A stretch of 64,000 bases of DNA from Methylibium sp. NZG (GTDB lineage Bacteria; Pseudomonadota; Gammaproteobacteria; Burkholderiales; Burkholderiaceae_C): the NCBI GenBank assembly GCA_001263235.1, contig LGRD01000002.1:186001-250000 (forward strand), given 5' to 3'. The position numbers and the translations under genes were made by a program. Below the pieces are notes generated by a model that made no database searches, was not told where the DNA came from, and worked only from the letters and a program-made list of their open reading frames with translations. Shown piece after piece: positions 41,137 through 46,722 of this stretch. The first letter of the stretch is position 1, and each line of letters starts with the position of its first letter.

Positions 41137-41269
41137 CGCGCTGAGCCAAGCGCACCTGCCCAAGCCGGGCGCTCCCGGGGCCGGCCTGCGCCCTGGCCCA
41201 CTCAGGCCGACCCCTGCGGCGGAGGTCTTGCTCCGGGTGAGCGGCCCCGCACAACGCGGCCGCCGTTCG

Positions 41270-41381
41270 CGACACGCGACACGCGACACGCGACACGCGA
41301 CACGCGACACGCGACACGCGACACGTGACACGTAGCACGTAGCACGTAGCACGTAGCACGTAGCACGTAGCACGTAACGCG
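41270..41381. repeat. 7-bp tandem repeat array with a unit switch
   Basis: Sixteen consecutive heptamers with no spacer. CGACACG is repeated eight times (41270-41325), then one hybrid TGACACG (41326-41332), six copies of TAGCACG (41333-41374) and a decayed TAACGCG (41375-41381). The array lies in the 428-base gap between the aminotransferase and the subtilase genes. The rest of that gap holds no gene that I can see, only the GAGGAG ribosome site just before 41565. A copy-number-variable microsatellite is the simplest reading. Confidence 0.92.
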
Positions 41382-41564
41382 CCACACGCCCCGCGGCCTC
41401 GCAGGGCGAACGGGCACTTCGCGGCCCGTCTGCGCCGATCCGGAACTGCCGGGTCTTTCACCCTTTGTTCCCGCTCAGGTTGATCCCCTCCAAAGCCGAA
41501 AGACATCGCAGCGCCTGCCCGTGCGATCCCTGCACGTCGGCCATAACGAACGAGGAGTTCTGCG

Positions 41565-44084
41565 ATGAACCTGTTGCCCCCGTCTCCATTCACTTCGCAC
41601 ATCACGCGCCCCCGGCGCGCGTTGTGCGCGGCCCTGGCCGGCGCAATCGCGCTGACCCCGGCGATGCCGGCCGCTGCCGCGCAGAACGCCGGTGACGCAG
41701 CCAGCAAGAAGGCCCCTGCCTCGCCGGCGGCTTGGCCGCTGACGGCACAGACAGGTCTGGCCGGTCTGGCAAAACTGTCCACCGAGTTGCAAGGTCTGCA
41801 CAGCCAGCCCATGGCCATGCCGGCTTCGGCCGATGGTGCCTCGCGCGTCACCTGGGCGCGCACCGTGCGCGGCCAGACGATGGTCAAGGTGCTGATCGTC
41901 GCGTCGAGCACCGACCCTGAGCTGGGCTCGCTGCGCGCCGACGTGCTGGCCCGCGGCGGCTCGGTGTTCTACAACTATCTGTCGGTGCGCGCGATTGCCG
42001 CGGTGCTGCCTGCCAGCGCGCTGCCGGCCATCGCGGCCCGCAGCGATGTCGTCAACATCGCGCCGAACCGCGCGGCCAAGCGCCAGTCGAGCCTGCTGCA
42101 GGCCAGCAGCGTGGCCGGCGACGCGCTGGAGCGCATCGGCAACGGTAGCGGCAACGGCAACGGCAACGGCAACGGCCATGGTTCAGGCCTCGACGGCCGC
42201 GGTGTCGGCATCGCGGTGCTCGACTCCGGCATCGACTTCCGCCACAAGAACTTCGCCGGCCCGGGCGGTGCAAGCCGGGTGCGCGGCATGGTGGACTTCG
42301 TGTCGCTGAGCCGCTCGCTCTATGGCGACGGTTGGGCCGCCGGCACCGACCACAGCGCCTCCACCCGCGCCAGCATCGACTGGACGCGCCGCAACGCGCC
42401 CTACCGCCACCACCAGAACTACGCCGCCGTGCCCGACCCGTACGGCCACGGCACGGCCGTTGCATCGGCGGCTGCCGGCAGCGGCGACTACCAGCAGCCC
42501 GACTCCAGTGGCATCGCCCCGGGCGCACACCTGTTCGACGTGCGCGTGCTCAACGAGCAAGGCGTGGGCAACATGGCCGACGTGCTGGCCGGCATCGACT
42601 GGGTGGTGCAGCGCGCCCGGTTGGCCAACATCCGCGTGATGAACCTGAGCCTGGGCGCGTCGTCTACCGACTCGTTCCTCATCGACCCGCTGGCGCGCGC
42701 AGCCCGCAGTGCGGTGGCCACCGGCATCGTCGTGGTGGCATCGGCCGGCAACGCCGGCAAGGACGAGCAGGGCCGCGAGGTGCTGGGCGCGGTCTCGTCG
42801 CCGGGCAACGAGCCGTCGGTCATCACCGTCGGCGCCGACAACATGCTGGACACGCCGGACCGCAGCGACGACAAGGTCACCACCTTCAGCTCGCGCGGCC
42901 CGACCCGTGGCGGCTACACCTTCGCCAGCGGCAACCGCTGGCGCGACAACCTCATCAAGCCCGACCTGGTGGCCCCCGGCAACGCGGTGCTCGCCGCGAT
43001 GGCGACCGACGCCAGCGGCCAGCCCGCCGGCTGGAACACGCTGGCACGCACTTACCCGCAACTGACGCAAGTCGCCGGCGCCACGCAGGCGCCGCGCCAG
43101 ACGCTGATGACGCTGAGCGGCACGTCGATGGCCTCGCCTGCGGTTGCCGGCGCTGCCGCGGTGCTGCTGCAGGCCAACCCGGGGCTGACGCCGCCGCTGG
43201 TGAAAGCGATCCTTCAGTACTCGGCCACGCCGCTGGCTGACGCCAACCTGCTGCAGCAAGGCACCGGCCTGCTGAACGTGCGCGGTGCGGCGCGCCTGGC
43301 GCAGGCGCTGCGCACCGACATCGCCTCCGCCGTAGCGGCCGGCACGATCAAGGCGGGCGACAACCTGCTTGCCGCGGGCAAGACACTGCCGCGACCGGCC
43401 AGCATGGTCAGCCAGGTGAACGGCAAGCCGCGCGCGTGGAGCCGCCTGGCCTTTGCCGGCGGCACGCGCCTGGTGGGCGGCGACGCGCTGTTCACCAGCT
43501 ACCAGCCGATCTGGGACCCGACGCTGACCTGGGCGCGGCACTTCGTGCTGAAGAGCACTGTGAGCTACCACCCCGCGTCGAGGTGGACCGAGTGGGCGGC
43601 CAACACCGTGCCCAGCGCGATCGTCGAGCGCAACGCCCCGGCCACGCCGCTGCTAACGGCCGGCGTGCGCTTGCTCGACAGCGTGAGCTTGAGCGTGGAG
43701 CAAGCCCCGCAGGCGCTGCTGACGCCGCTGACCACGCTGATCGCACGGGCCGATGCAGGCGCAGGCATCACGCTGGGGCTGGGCTACGCATTCACCGGCA
43801 ACGGCATCCAGGCCGACGGGTTCATTCTGAGCGAGGGCTTCGCCATCAACGAGGGCGTGATCCTGCGCGAGGGAATCATTTTGCGCGAAGGCATCATCCT
43901 TCGCGAAGGGATCATCCTGCGCGAGGGCTTTGTCCTCGGTGAGGGCATCATCCTGCGTGAAGGCATCATCCTGCGCGAGGGGATCATCCTGCGAGAAGGA
44001 TTCGTGCTCAACGAGGGGATCATCCTGCGAGAATCCACGGGTGATGCGGCGACCGGCGGCGACAGGAGCCTGCTGGGCGACTGA
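41565..44084 (+). CDS. Secreted S8 subtilisin-like serine peptidase with hexapeptide-repeat C-terminus
   Basis: 839-residue exported protease. A Sec signal peptide (to about residue 39, AAAAQ) is followed by an I9-like prodomain (VKVLIVASSTDPELGSL onwards) and a Gly-Asn-rich linker. The catalytic domain has Asp220 (AVLDSGID), His295 (YGHGTAVAS), the oxyanion Asn in ASAGNAG, and Ser521 (SGTSMASP). After about 230 further residues the protein ends in twelve six-residue repeats of the form G-I-I-L-R-E (residues 752-823). GAGGAG precedes the ATG and a strong intrinsic terminator follows the stop. Peptidase role is secure. The repeat tail could be a stacked beta structure, a surface anchor or a secretion element, which is inference. 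Confidence 0.95.
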   Translation: MNLLPPSPFTSHITRPRRALCAALAGAIALTPAMPAAAAQNAGDAASKKAPASPAAWPLTAQTGLAGLAKLSTELQGLHSQPMAMPASADGASRVTWARTVRGQTMVKVLIVASSTDPELGSLRADVLARGGSVFYNYLSVRAIAAVLPASALPAIAARSDVVNIAPNRAAKRQSSLLQASSVAGDALERIGNGSGNGNGNGNGHGSGLDGRGVGIAVLDSGIDFRHKNFAGPGGASRVRGMVDFVSLSRSLYGDGWAAGTDHSASTRASIDWTRRNAPYRHHQNYAAVPDPYGHGTAVASAAAGSGDYQQPDSSGIAPGAHLFDVRVLNEQGVGNMADVLAGIDWVVQRARLANIRVMNLSLGASSTDSFLIDPLARAARSAVATGIVVVASAGNAGKDEQGREVLGAVSSPGNEPSVITVGADNMLDTPDRSDDKVTTFSSRGPTRGGYTFASGNRWRDNLIKPDLVAPGNAVLAAMATDASGQPAGWNTLARTYPQLTQVAGATQAPRQTLMTLSGTSMASPAVAGAAAVLLQANPGLTPPLVKAILQYSATPLADANLLQQGTGLLNVRGAARLAQALRTDIASAVAAGTIKAGDNLLAAGKTLPRPASMVSQVNGKPRAWSRLAFAGGTRLVGGDALFTSYQPIWDPTLTWARHFVLKSTVSYHPASRWTEWAANTVPSAIVERNAPATPLLTAGVRLLDSVSLSVEQAPQALLTPLTTLIARADAGAGITLGLGYAFTGNGIQADGFILSEGFAINEGVILREGIILREGIILREGIILREGFVLGEGIILREGIILREGIILREGFVLNEGIILRESTGDAATGGDRSLLGD
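43818..44033 (+). repeat. Twelve 18-bp repeats coding a G-[IVF]-[IVA]-[LI]-x-E tail
   Basis: Twelve head-to-tail 18-mers at the end of the subtilase gene. The protein units are GFILSE, GFAINE, GVILRE, then mostly GIILRE with GFVLGE and GFVLNE interrupting at regular positions. DNA units differ at several synonymous sites, so the repeat is old or under amino acid selection rather than freshly amplified. Confidence 0.92.
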
Positions 44085-44107
44085 AACACCCTCCCTGCGG
44101 GTCGCAG

Positions 44108-44146
44108 GCTGGCGCCGGGTTCTGCCCGACGCCAGCTTTGTTTTTT
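44108..44146 (+). terminator. Rho-independent terminator after the subtilase gene
   Basis: GCTGGCGCCGGG and CCCGACGCCAGC form a 12-bp stem with one mismatch and a five-base loop, followed by TTTGTTTTTT. It begins 24 bases after the subtilase stop. It is the clearest intrinsic terminator in the window, so the downstream GGDEF-EAL gene should have its own promoter. Confidence 0.9.
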
Positions 44147-44196
44147 GCGCCGCGGGTTTCTGGTTCAATCGACAGGTTAAGCCGCCGACCAAAAGA

Positions 44197-46722
44197 GTGG
44201 GACACCAACCCGAATCACCGACCCAATCGCCTGCTGCCGACGCAAGCTGGCGGCAACGTTGGCGCGCCGCGCACTTTCACGACTACTCGGCAGCGTCGTT
44301 CCGCATGTGGCTGCTGATCACCGTGTCGGGCGCACTGGCGCTGGGCTGGGCAGCGGTGGCGTTGGCAGGATCGACGTCCGTGCATCTGGCTCACACAGCG
44401 ACGGGCGTGCTGCTGGTCGCAGCAGCGGCGTGGTTTCCGATCGAGTTGCCGCGCAGCAAGTTCTCTTTCAGCGCGGCAGACGCGTTCATCTTCACCGTAC
44501 TGGCCGTGCTGGGCACACCGGCTGCCGTGCTCGCCGCCGGCGCCGACGGGCTGGTCGGCGCACTGCGCAGCACAAGGCGGCTGACGAGCCGCATCAGCAC
44601 CCCGGCGGCCGGCATGGCCGCCATCGCGTTGTGCGGTTGGCTGTTCGAGACCCTGTCACCGCTGCTTGCAGCACGCGGCCTGAGCCCGGCCACGGCGCAA
44701 TTGGCGGCGCTGCTGCTGGCCAGCCCCGTGCCGTTCGTGCTGACCACGCTACCGCTGCTCGCCATGGTCACGCTCAAACGGAACGAGTGGCCGAACCTGC
44801 GTGAGTGGTTTTCCGGCTTCAGCTGGTTTGCCGCCACCTACGTGGTGGCCGCGCTGGTGGCCGGCATCGTGCAGTTGAGCGCACTGCAAGAGGGGCCTGC
44901 CGCGCTGGGCATCGCCGCGGTGGCGGCGCTGGTGGTGGTGATCCTGCTGCGCACCTCGATCGCCAAAAGCGAGGCCGAGCACCAGGCGCAGGAGACACGC
45001 ATCTCCGAGGCCGAACTGGAGGCCGAGCGCAACCAGCAGCGCTTCGTCGCCGCCTTCACCGAAGCAGCCATCGGCATGGCCATCGTGGCGCCGGGTGGAC
45101 GCATCGTGCGCGCCAACAAGGCCTTGTGTACGCTGCTGCAGCGCCCAGAGGCGCAACTCACCGGCCAACCCTTCGTGGCCATGCTGCACCCGAGCGACAT
45201 GGCGCTGTTCGAGCGACAGGCCCGCGACGTGGTGTCGCGCCAGGACAGCCCCGCCTACTCGATCGAGCTGCGCTGCCTGCCGGCCGCCGGCGGCGAGCTG
45301 TGGGTGGCCTTGCACTGCGGGCGCTTCAGCGACCCGGGCAGCAACGCGGGCGGGCTGATCTACCAGTTGCAGGACATCACCTCGCGCCAAGTGGCCGAGA
45401 GCCGGCTGCAGCACATCGCGTTCCACGACAGCCTGACCGACCTGGCCAACCGCGCCTACTTCCACGAGAAGCTGGCCCTTGCGGTCGACGCCAACCGGCT
45501 CGACCCCGACACGCATTTCGCGGTGATGTTCCTCGACCTCGACCGATTCAAGGTCGTCAACGACAGCCTGGGCCACTTTGCCGGCAACGAGTTGCTGCGC
45601 GAGGTGGGGCGGCGCCTGCAGCAATGCCTGCGCCCCAACGACCTGGTCGCGCGCCTGGGCGGCGACGAGTTTGCGGTGCTGCTGCGCGACCCGTGCAGCA
45701 GCGACGACGGCCTGCGCATGGCCGAGCGCATGCTGGCCGCGCTGGCGCAGCCCATGTTGATCTCCGGCAACGAAGTCGTGCCCAGCGCGAGCGCGGGCAT
45801 CACCTTCAGCAGCATCGGCGACCGCGGTGTCGACGAACTGCTGCGCGACGCCGACCTGGCCATGTACGAGGCCAAGTCGGCCGGCCGCGGCCGGGTGGTC
45901 ACCTTCAACCGCGGCATGCACGACAAGATCGCCGACAAGCTGTCGCTCGAAGCCGACCTGCGCCGCGCCATCGGCGAGGGCGACCTGTCCTTGTCGTTCC
46001 AGCCGCTGTTCCGGCTCGACCCGTACCGGCTTGTCGGCTTCGAGGCGCTGGCGCGCTGGGTTCACCCGTTGCGCGGGCCGATCGGGCCGACGGTGTTCAT
46101 CGGCGTGGCCGAAGAGGCCGGCCACATCGAGGCGCTGACGGCCTGGGTGCTCGACAAGGCGGTCGAGCAGCTTGCCGAATGGCACCGTTCGGCGCCAGAC
46201 ATGGCCGACGTGGGCATGAGCGTCAACATCTCGGGGCGCGACCTCGCACGGCCTGACTTCGGCGAGCGCGTGATGGCGGTGCTGCAGCGCCATGGCGTCG
46301 CGCCGAAGCGGCTGACGCTGGAGATCACCGAGTCGGTGCTGATGGAGCACCTGGACGTGGCGCGTGAGACGCTGGCCCGCCTGCGCTCATTCGGTGTGCA
46401 GACGGCCATCGACGACTTCGGCACCGGCTACTCTTCCCTCACCTACCTCAGCACCCTGCCGATCGACTGCATCAAGATCGACCGCTCGTTCGTCACCGCC
46501 ATCACGCAAGGCGCCGACAACGTCGAGATCGTCCGCGCCGTGCTGCGCCTGGGCCGTGCACTGGCCAAGACGGTCGTGGCTGAGGGCATCGAAACGCCGG
46601 AACAATTCGACACGCTGCGCAGACTGGGCCTGCCGGTGGGCCAGGGCTTTTTGCTGGCCCACCCGATGCGGGCCGACCAGGCGGCGGCGTTTTTGTACGT
46701 GCCGGCCACGCTGCCGGCCTGA
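44197..46722 (+). CDS. Membrane GGDEF-EAL protein with PAS domain (c-di-GMP turnover)
   Basis: Inner-membrane signalling protein of about 841 residues. The N-terminus carries several hydrophobic helices (about 37-260) forming a MASE-like sensor that I cannot name. Next come a coiled segment rich in Glu/Ala and a PAS domain (FTEAAIGMAIVAPGG onwards). The GGDEF domain has intact RLGGDEFAVLL near residue 488 and an upstream RxxD inhibitory site (RPND). The EAL domain has FEALARW near 616 and the catalytic DDFGTGYSS, KIDRSF and VAEGIET. Both synthesis and hydrolysis of c-di-GMP are therefore possible. No ATG precedes the sensor; GTG 44197 is my choice, with ATG 44305 as alternative. Confidence 0.9.
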   Translation: MGHQPESPTQSPAADASWRQRWRAAHFHDYSAASFRMWLLITVSGALALGWAAVALAGSTSVHLAHTATGVLLVAAAAWFPIELPRSKFSFSAADAFIFTVLAVLGTPAAVLAAGADGLVGALRSTRRLTSRISTPAAGMAAIALCGWLFETLSPLLAARGLSPATAQLAALLLASPVPFVLTTLPLLAMVTLKRNEWPNLREWFSGFSWFAATYVVAALVAGIVQLSALQEGPAALGIAAVAALVVVILLRTSIAKSEAEHQAQETRISEAELEAERNQQRFVAAFTEAAIGMAIVAPGGRIVRANKALCTLLQRPEAQLTGQPFVAMLHPSDMALFERQARDVVSRQDSPAYSIELRCLPAAGGELWVALHCGRFSDPGSNAGGLIYQLQDITSRQVAESRLQHIAFHDSLTDLANRAYFHEKLALAVDANRLDPDTHFAVMFLDLDRFKVVNDSLGHFAGNELLREVGRRLQQCLRPNDLVARLGGDEFAVLLRDPCSSDDGLRMAERMLAALAQPMLISGNEVVPSASAGITFSSIGDRGVDELLRDADLAMYEAKSAGRGRVVTFNRGMHDKIADKLSLEADLRRAIGEGDLSLSFQPLFRLDPYRLVGFEALARWVHPLRGPIGPTVFIGVAEEAGHIEALTAWVLDKAVEQLAEWHRSAPDMADVGMSVNISGRDLARPDFGERVMAVLQRHGVAPKRLTLEITESVLMEHLDVARETLARLRSFGVQTAIDDFGTGYSSLTYLSTLPIDCIKIDRSFVTAITQGADNVEIVRAVLRLGRALAKTVVAEGIETPEQFDTLRRLGLPVGQGFLLAHPMRADQAAAFLYVPATLPA

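Follow-up and report, generated by a model that had tools for sequence, protein, structure and literature searches.

What is a tail of near-identical hexapeptides doing at the end of a subtilisin-like protease? We addressed this question in a 64,000-nucleotide stretch of Methylibium sp. NZG (contig LGRD01000002.1, positions 186,001 to 250,000; hereafter the window), where the gene for an S8 subtilase ending in twelve such units is followed by a gene for a membrane sensor. We tentatively favour, at a probability of roughly 0.38, the reading that the two proteins form an outside-in signalling pair, with the tail serving as a multi-copy peptide ligand for the sensor. Their near-exclusive co-occurrence in the sampled genomes suggests a module in which the tail of the protease supplies the input of the sensor. 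The original prediction for this DNA concerned the tail; it missed the linked sensor gene, a stronger clue that lies outside the tail coordinates. The argument uses four features:

41565..44084, plus strand: S8 subtilase with C-terminal hexapeptide tail, 839 amino acids (open reading frame; Pfam PF00082)
43818..44033, plus strand: twelve tandem hexapeptides G-x-x-x-x-E, consensus GIILRE (translation; kept in homologues)
44197..46722, plus strand: linked membrane sensor, PAS-GGDEF-EAL, 841 amino acids, GTG start chosen by hand (Pfam; linkage)
44290..44988, plus strand: sensor membrane domain, residues about 32-264, predicted fold like that of ECF S-components (AlphaFold2, Foldseek, VIA-align)

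The tailed protease is linked to a membrane sensor

Two peptide patterns were run against one genome per species (84,980 species), which gave 287 relatives of the protease; the best 80 of these correspond to 79 loci. Counts of named loci rest on this best set, and members beyond the groups listed here are possible among the other 207. Within it, the 79 loci are titled Burkholderiales, Betaproteobacteria or wider groups, and carriers include Rubrivivax, Ideonella, Piscinibacter, Rhizobacter, Roseateles, Pelomonas and Leptothrix (named strains include Roseateles toxinivorans DSM 16998 and Piscinibacter sakaiensis 201-F6). Having at least 900 bp of downstream sequence, 75 of the 79 loci were testable for a partner gene. 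The sensor membrane domain starts at most 450 bp downstream on the same strand in 63 of them. It lies further downstream in another six (L039, L047, L054, L070, L075 and L077), five of which have a second tailed open reading frame in between. At L041 the downstream GGDEF-EAL sequence comes without the sensor membrane domain. The script-chosen sensor start overlaps the protease stop by 4 bp in seven loci. The genome of the window encodes two further tailed proteases, with tails of GFILSE and GLVLSE, and both paralogues are also followed by the same kind of sensor.

Profile searches of genomes were made within the phylum of the window. The protease matched in 25 of 299 sampled genomes of the window's family, and the sensor membrane domain was found in 23 of these 25 and in none of 41 protease-negative genomes (66 genomes in all; 41 of 57 protease-negative genomes entered the comparison). 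Both genomes without the sensor have an incomplete protease: in G066 the match begins at base 6 of a contig, and in G227 the tail portion is lacking and the match is apparently the contig-end protein L040. In a sample of 398 genomes of the phylum, the protease matched in four, two of them by the S8 domain only, and the sensor domain in two, the same two with a full-length protease. Distant members can escape the first-look step of these searches, which took up to three protease candidates per genome for the 299 family genomes and two for the 398 phylum genomes, and up to 39 sensor-domain candidates per genome for the 66 genomes and six for the 398.

Some positive genomes (e.g. G010 and G319) hold extra sensor copies apart from the protease, and in one genus 34 of 80 genomes match the protease, at up to 6-8 places per genome, some of these being fragments. 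A plasmid search with the protease matched 123 records, none covering 80% of it, and one with the sensor domain gave no match. A related-locus search with the protease as single query found nothing. S8 peptidases with NIVWG-type repeats from Acidobacteria are a possible further lead; a plasmid search with the NIVWG motif gave two weak matches.

Output and membrane domain of the sensor

In Pfam, the window sensor matches GGDEF (7e-45), EAL (6.9e-71) and PAS. Thirty-seven of the 42 partners scanned combine GGDEF with EAL, and five carry a histidine-kinase ATPase domain. This variation in output type, while tail and membrane domain persist, was counted in favour of a signalling pair. GGDEF is intact by motif in 36 and EAL in 35 of the 42 partner rows, which would suit an enzyme output rather than a LapD-like effector. 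As a separate observation, the open reading frame that follows the histidine-kinase version at L081 (8602-10044) begins, by eye, with receiver-like sequence (VLLVDD...), which suggests a possible phosphorelay.

Pfam and NCBIfam held no convincing match for the sensor membrane domain: the best was DUF2339 (E 0.004, in 2 of 28 members), MASE9 matched weakly in 2 of 28 (best E 0.1), and the window copy had no Pfam match under E 0.4. Nothing related on MASE9 was found in the open-access literature. AlphaFold2 modelled the domain with a predicted local distance difference test score (pLDDT) of 93.5, and the top Foldseek matches of this model were ECF S-components (probability 1.00; best E 0.004, none below 0.001). 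In VIA-align the best match was a transition-metal transporter, presumably NikM (Z 15.2 over 193 residues at 3.4 Å). S-components occupied ranks 1-19 and 21-23 (Z 10.0-15.2) at sequence identities of 7-17%, followed by apolipoprotein N-acyltransferases with Z up to 10.6. The Z score alone is indecisive; the better argument is that the top rows belong to one family across most of the domain. By its predicted model, the membrane domain has the S-component fold. Gene linkage, variation of the output, enzyme motifs that are intact and this ligand-binding-type fold together point to the partner as a candidate sensor of outside-in signals, with a natural input that is connected with the protease.

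The tail and its evolution

Residues 752-823 of the protease (43818-44033, 216 bp) form exactly twelve consecutive units with G at position 1 and E at position 6 throughout, in the order GFILSE, GFAINE, GVILRE, three GIILRE, GFVLGE, three GIILRE, GFVLNE and GIILRE. The original prediction of twelve such hexapeptides behind the protease domain was thus correct to the base. No G....E occurs in residues 1-752, the longest run among 2000 shuffles of residues 740-839 was three (in five shuffles), and a six-frame scan of the window found no further run of three or more. The seven GIILRE units are spelled by six different DNA words, and the tail DNA has a period of 72 bp (2.3 copies, 81% matches). 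An interruption at every fourth unit, as had been proposed, is present at units 7 and 11 and fits this period, but these are two instances only, and no such rule was seen by eye in homologous tails.

No Pfam or NCBIfam family covers the tail. Its sole matches are weak left-handed-beta-helix (LbH) and similar models, at E 0.01 (16.3 bits against a cut-off of 54) and E 0.041 (14 against 39 bits); with both below their cut-offs, the tail does not fit the LbH hexapeptide-repeat profile. In an AlphaFold2 model built on 59 aligned sequences, residues 756-839 had pLDDT below 50 (ten-residue means of 28-39 from residue 761 on) and no strand was assigned, a result that is not proof of disorder and has little bearing on stacking between molecules. 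The prediction of a tail without a fold was counted toward the peptide-ligand reading, and the stacked beta solenoid, which the original prediction had put forward, was dropped as leading reading since AlphaFold2 gave the tail no fold; unit numbers in homologues likewise show no preference for multiples of three. The original prediction was supported in part: described domains leave the tail uncovered, and orthologues keep the repeat. It was to be given up if a described domain covered the tail, or if disorder went together with an unconserved repeat, and taken as a whole this refutation did not come about.

At least four units of the strict pattern are present in 78 of the 79 protease homologues, the exception (L040) running off its contig. 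The unit letters vary between proteins (e.g. GIILRE, GFFLTE, GVVLSE), and a tail holds 4 to 22 copies, most commonly 8, 9, 10 or 11. Arrays were defined by G-x-x-[LIVMFA]-x-E, so that degenerate units failing this pattern (e.g. GLTLGN) are uncounted; the resulting 83 arrays are not fully independent, and some script-chosen start codons of homologues are wrong (e.g. rows L011 and L042). The mean amino-acid identity between units of an array is 0.92, and 36 of the 83 arrays are uniform among their pattern-matching units. Within arrays, synonymous divergence (pS) is 0.470, against 0.474 expected for random codons drawn from the gene's own usage. Because the two are equal, the units appear mostly not to be recent DNA copies, and their likeness would be kept by selection. 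By the same comparison, the idea that units are generally identical through recent duplication of their DNA was rejected on average, although some arrays do look recent (L007, L061, L065 and L071, pS 0.18-0.22). The observed nonsynonymous value (pN 0.071) is lower than the 0.117 of random synonymous draws, which count switches inside six-fold codon families, and traces of common descent therefore seem to remain among the units. At positions 2-5, units of the same array differ with a mismatch of 0.13, against 0.45 when different arrays of a clade are compared (same-clade pairs). Several hydrophobic letters thus seem acceptable, and units in one protein tend to share the same ones. On the protease tree of the 92 pairs described below, 46 unit changes are needed.

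The C-terminus of the protein is GEP in 38 of 79 homologues, with varied codons, and ends in GER or LGE are also frequent. GEP as a mere footprint of a ribosome-binding site or ATGA overlap was rejected because its codons vary and many GEP ends are distant from the next start. One subclade (L009, L022, L027 and L033) has a conserved irregular spacer, about LTLxQQRLVGxG, inside the array, which none of the models considered here accounts for. At L041 (361-3528), the tailed protease continues in frame, after about three units, into GGDEF-like sequence, followed by a stop codon and more GGDEF-EAL sequence; this arrangement is a deletion, an assembly collapse at repeats, or a fusion.

Co-variation of the repeat unit and the sensor

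We asked whether unit and membrane domain diverge together. We reduced 171 protease-sensor pairs to 92 non-redundant ones, in which the divergence of the unit correlates more strongly with that of the sensor membrane domain (0.56) than with that of the protease core (0.35) or the pre-tail region (0.39). In a partial Mantel test, which ignores phylogeny, the correlation of unit and sensor given protease core and pre-tail region was 0.43 (p 0.0005); the two large clades gave 0.31 (p 0.0015) and 0.43 (p 0.0005). The reverse partials were near zero (protease core given sensor, 0.04, p 0.18). With independent pairs (45 of 46 with complete distances), rho was 0.33 (p 0.026) for the sensor and 0.22 (p 0.15) for the pre-tail region. 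Taken with the results that weigh against it below, this co-variation appears suggestive only.

Layout of the protease and its upstream region

The remaining parts of the protease are as follows:

41565..41681, plus strand: probable Sec signal peptide, residues about 1-39 (by reading of the sequence)
41847..42092, plus strand: putative propeptide-like region, residues about 95-176 (confident AlphaFold2 model; weak phmmer match; Foldseek)
42195..43253, plus strand: Peptidase S8 catalytic domain, residues 211-563 (Pfam PF00082, E 1e-47)
44034..44081, plus strand: C-terminal linker with LLGD end (38 of 79 homologues end in GEP)

Invariant columns in the alignment of 59 protease sequences include D220, H295, N396 and S521, which by S8 motifs we take to be the catalytic residues (D220, H295 and S521, with N396). 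By these motifs the protein is assigned to Peptidase family S8 with an Asp-His-Ser triad, and it is probably secreted or extracytoplasmic. Most of the propeptide-like and protease regions were modelled at high confidence in the AlphaFold2 run on 59 sequences. A Pfam scan of the protease gave no propeptide match; phmmer found a weak stretch (query 126-255) matching the pro-form 3afg, and the top Foldseek matches of the whole model were pro-forms, listed without aligned ranges. Anti-phage defence was considered and rejected: the protease matches only the PADLOC subtilase and IetS models, and the partner matches none.

Several side observations concern this gene. The linker that joins the propeptide-like region to the catalytic domain is a GNGNGNGNG stretch encoded by a GCAACG hexanucleotide repeat (42133-42176), within the low-confidence model stretch 191-206. 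In 18 of 79 homologues (L039, L043, L046, L050, L051, L063, L065 and others), and not in the window copy, a conserved FxVLI..R segment precedes the signal-peptide-like stretch and looks like an extended signal-peptide region. At 41268-41388, 180-300 bp upstream of the protease start, two 7-bp tandem arrays adjoin (about nine copies of CGCGACA and about seven of CACGTAG). Three CGCGACA in tandem were found among the fetched loci only in two copies of the same place, many loci ending short of it; the arrays are perhaps a variable spacer. Neither a promoter nor a terminator was detected when 41150-44400 was scanned for them.

What the tail may do

In the favoured reading of a signalling pair, the protease would be exported, and its tail, with 4 to 22 copies of one hexapeptide, would be recognised by the ligand-binding-type membrane domain of the partner. 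The peptide may be released by the protease itself or by another protease, or possibly be read while attached. Binding would then alter the cytoplasmic output, a GGDEF-EAL enzyme of cyclic di-GMP (c-di-GMP) in most pairs examined and a histidine kinase in some, if signals run in this direction. Several copies may serve one binding site because the letters agree within and not between proteins and because synonymous divergence is at the random level. Letters that are uniform yet interchangeable, in many copies, likewise argue for a multi-copy ligand of one receptor, as in Bacillus and fungal repeat precursors. A more specific version, in which a secreted subtilase of a Gram-negative system cuts out its own hexapeptide pheromone, an S-component-fold receptor reads it and drives c-di-GMP or phosphorelay output, and paralogous pairs act as private channels with differing letters, appears doubtful.

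A number of results weigh against a signalling pair. The partner is absent in 5 of the 75 testable loci (L048, L055, L058, L060 and L084). G114 has two proteases; no sensor was found at the second, and that of the other reads in two overlapping pieces. L039 and L047 each have one sensor behind two tandem proteases whose units differ. The co-variation is fragile as well. Without sensor outliers, the partial correlation of one clade drops to 0.16 (p 0.08), the other staying at 0.43; in an earlier set of 61 pairs (64 minus L017, L019 and L020), one clade drops to 0.08 (p 0.18) without five divergent loci. Nearest neighbours agree with the sensor rather than the protease core in 17 cases against 11 (20 ties), and rather than the pre-tail region in 15 against 12 (25 ties). 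Parsimony requires 66 steps on the sensor tree against 70 on the protease tree, with fewer steps for the sensor in 21 of 25 bootstraps, whole-unit parsimony gives 46 on both, and same versus different units among independent pairs gives p 0.097. Since tail and sensor gene adjoin, co-transfer by recombination could mimic co-variation. As to the fold, five mostly helical models without a clear match typically reached a best Z of 14, so that a high helical Z is possible by chance, and the pockets of S-components bind vitamins or metals, which are smaller than a hexapeptide. Finally, the C-terminal GEP and the irregular spacer of L009, L022, L027 and L033 are not predicted by a plain peptide precursor; the conserved C-terminus and these spacers favour some structural or docking role.

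Such a role could be structural: by stacking in register, identical units would build a rod, amyloid-like or a beta solenoid, by which the protease is anchored, clustered or displayed. The sensor would then answer another input, e.g. products of the proteolysis of other proteins. The regular alternation of aliphatic and polar residues in the tail suits a rod, as do the narrow range of unit numbers, the conserved spacers of one subclade, the GEP end in 38 of 79 homologues and the existence of a fibril form of the S8 peptidase Vpr in the PDB (8jmw). Amyloid-like stacking remains compatible with unit identity because in-register stacking would also favour identical units. Structural repeats, however, usually tolerate mixing of I, V, L and F within an array, whereas here 36 of 83 arrays show no variation among their matching units. 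AlphaFold2 gives the tail a pLDDT of about 30 and no strands, the left-handed-beta-helix matches are weak (best E 0.01), and a rod leaves the linked sensor unexplained. We consider it a rather unlikely account.

Less probable is an uncut docking strip, whose repeats would hold the protease at the sensor; the state of the protease, be it bound, stalled or freed, would then be what the sensor reads. The strong gene linkage and the suggestive tail-sensor co-variation agree with docking, and the conserved C-terminus could be a binding motif, but docking alone requires neither 8-12 copies nor exact uniformity, and it does not sit well with the two tandem proteases of different units before one sensor at L039 and L047. 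Inside-out control would make the membrane GGDEF-EAL protein a receptor of cytoplasmic c-di-GMP that sequesters a probably periplasmic protease, the two being paired as in LapD-LapG (PMC3032545). This is improbable, because LapD motifs are described as degenerate (PMC3032553) while 36 of 42 partner rows here have an intact GGDEF and 35 an intact EAL motif, and because histidine-kinase versions exist, which cannot be such c-di-GMP receptors.

In Burkholderiales the pair brings together a protease that is probably extracytoplasmic, a repeated tail of unusual uniformity and a sensor of ligand-binding type with c-di-GMP or kinase output, and no description of the protease-sensor pair or of the tail was found in the open-access literature. 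Should the tail prove to be a peptide signal, bacteria would have their parallel to the repeat pheromone precursors of fungi, with two neighbouring genes encoding protease, signal and receptor. Should it prove to be a rod, the repeat would be a hitherto unrecognised one that follows a rule of exact identity. In either case, the membrane domain of the sensor would be an input domain new to GGDEF-EAL and histidine-kinase proteins.

Comparison with known systems

The ECF S-components (NikM/CbiM, RibU, BioY, ThiT, PanT, FolT) resemble the sensor membrane domain in predicted fold. They work in transport together with EcfT and EcfA ATPases; the sensor domain shares its protein with PAS-GGDEF-EAL or kinase domains, and its gene is linked to that of a protease. 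In fungi, KEX2 sites are dibasic, and the units of the window abut as E-G with no dibasic pair. The KEX2-processed repeat proteins (PMC6339444) are similar in being repeat precursors with many copies, but there KEX2 cuts a separate protein, with neither a fused protease nor a paired sensor.

In LapD-LapG, a membrane GGDEF-EAL protein is likewise paired with a periplasmic protease; LapG is a cysteine protease (PMC3032545) and LapD has degenerate GGDEF and EAL motifs (PMC3032553). Here neither trait is found, the protease being an S8 serine protease and the partner having intact GGDEF-EAL motifs or a histidine kinase. LapD-LapG is the nearest protease/GGDEF-EAL pair that we found, and its defining degeneracy appears, by motif, to be absent here.

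In the Rap-Phr systems of Bacillus, propeptides with 1-4 copies of a short pheromone are cut by extracellular proteases (PMC11343458). The likeness lies in a short peptide present in more than one copy in one precursor. Rap-Phr has a Bacillota propeptide and receptors of the RRNPPA family, whereas here 4-22 copies are fused to the protease itself in Burkholderiales, and the candidate receptor is not a Rap-like protein but a membrane PAS-GGDEF-EAL or kinase protein.

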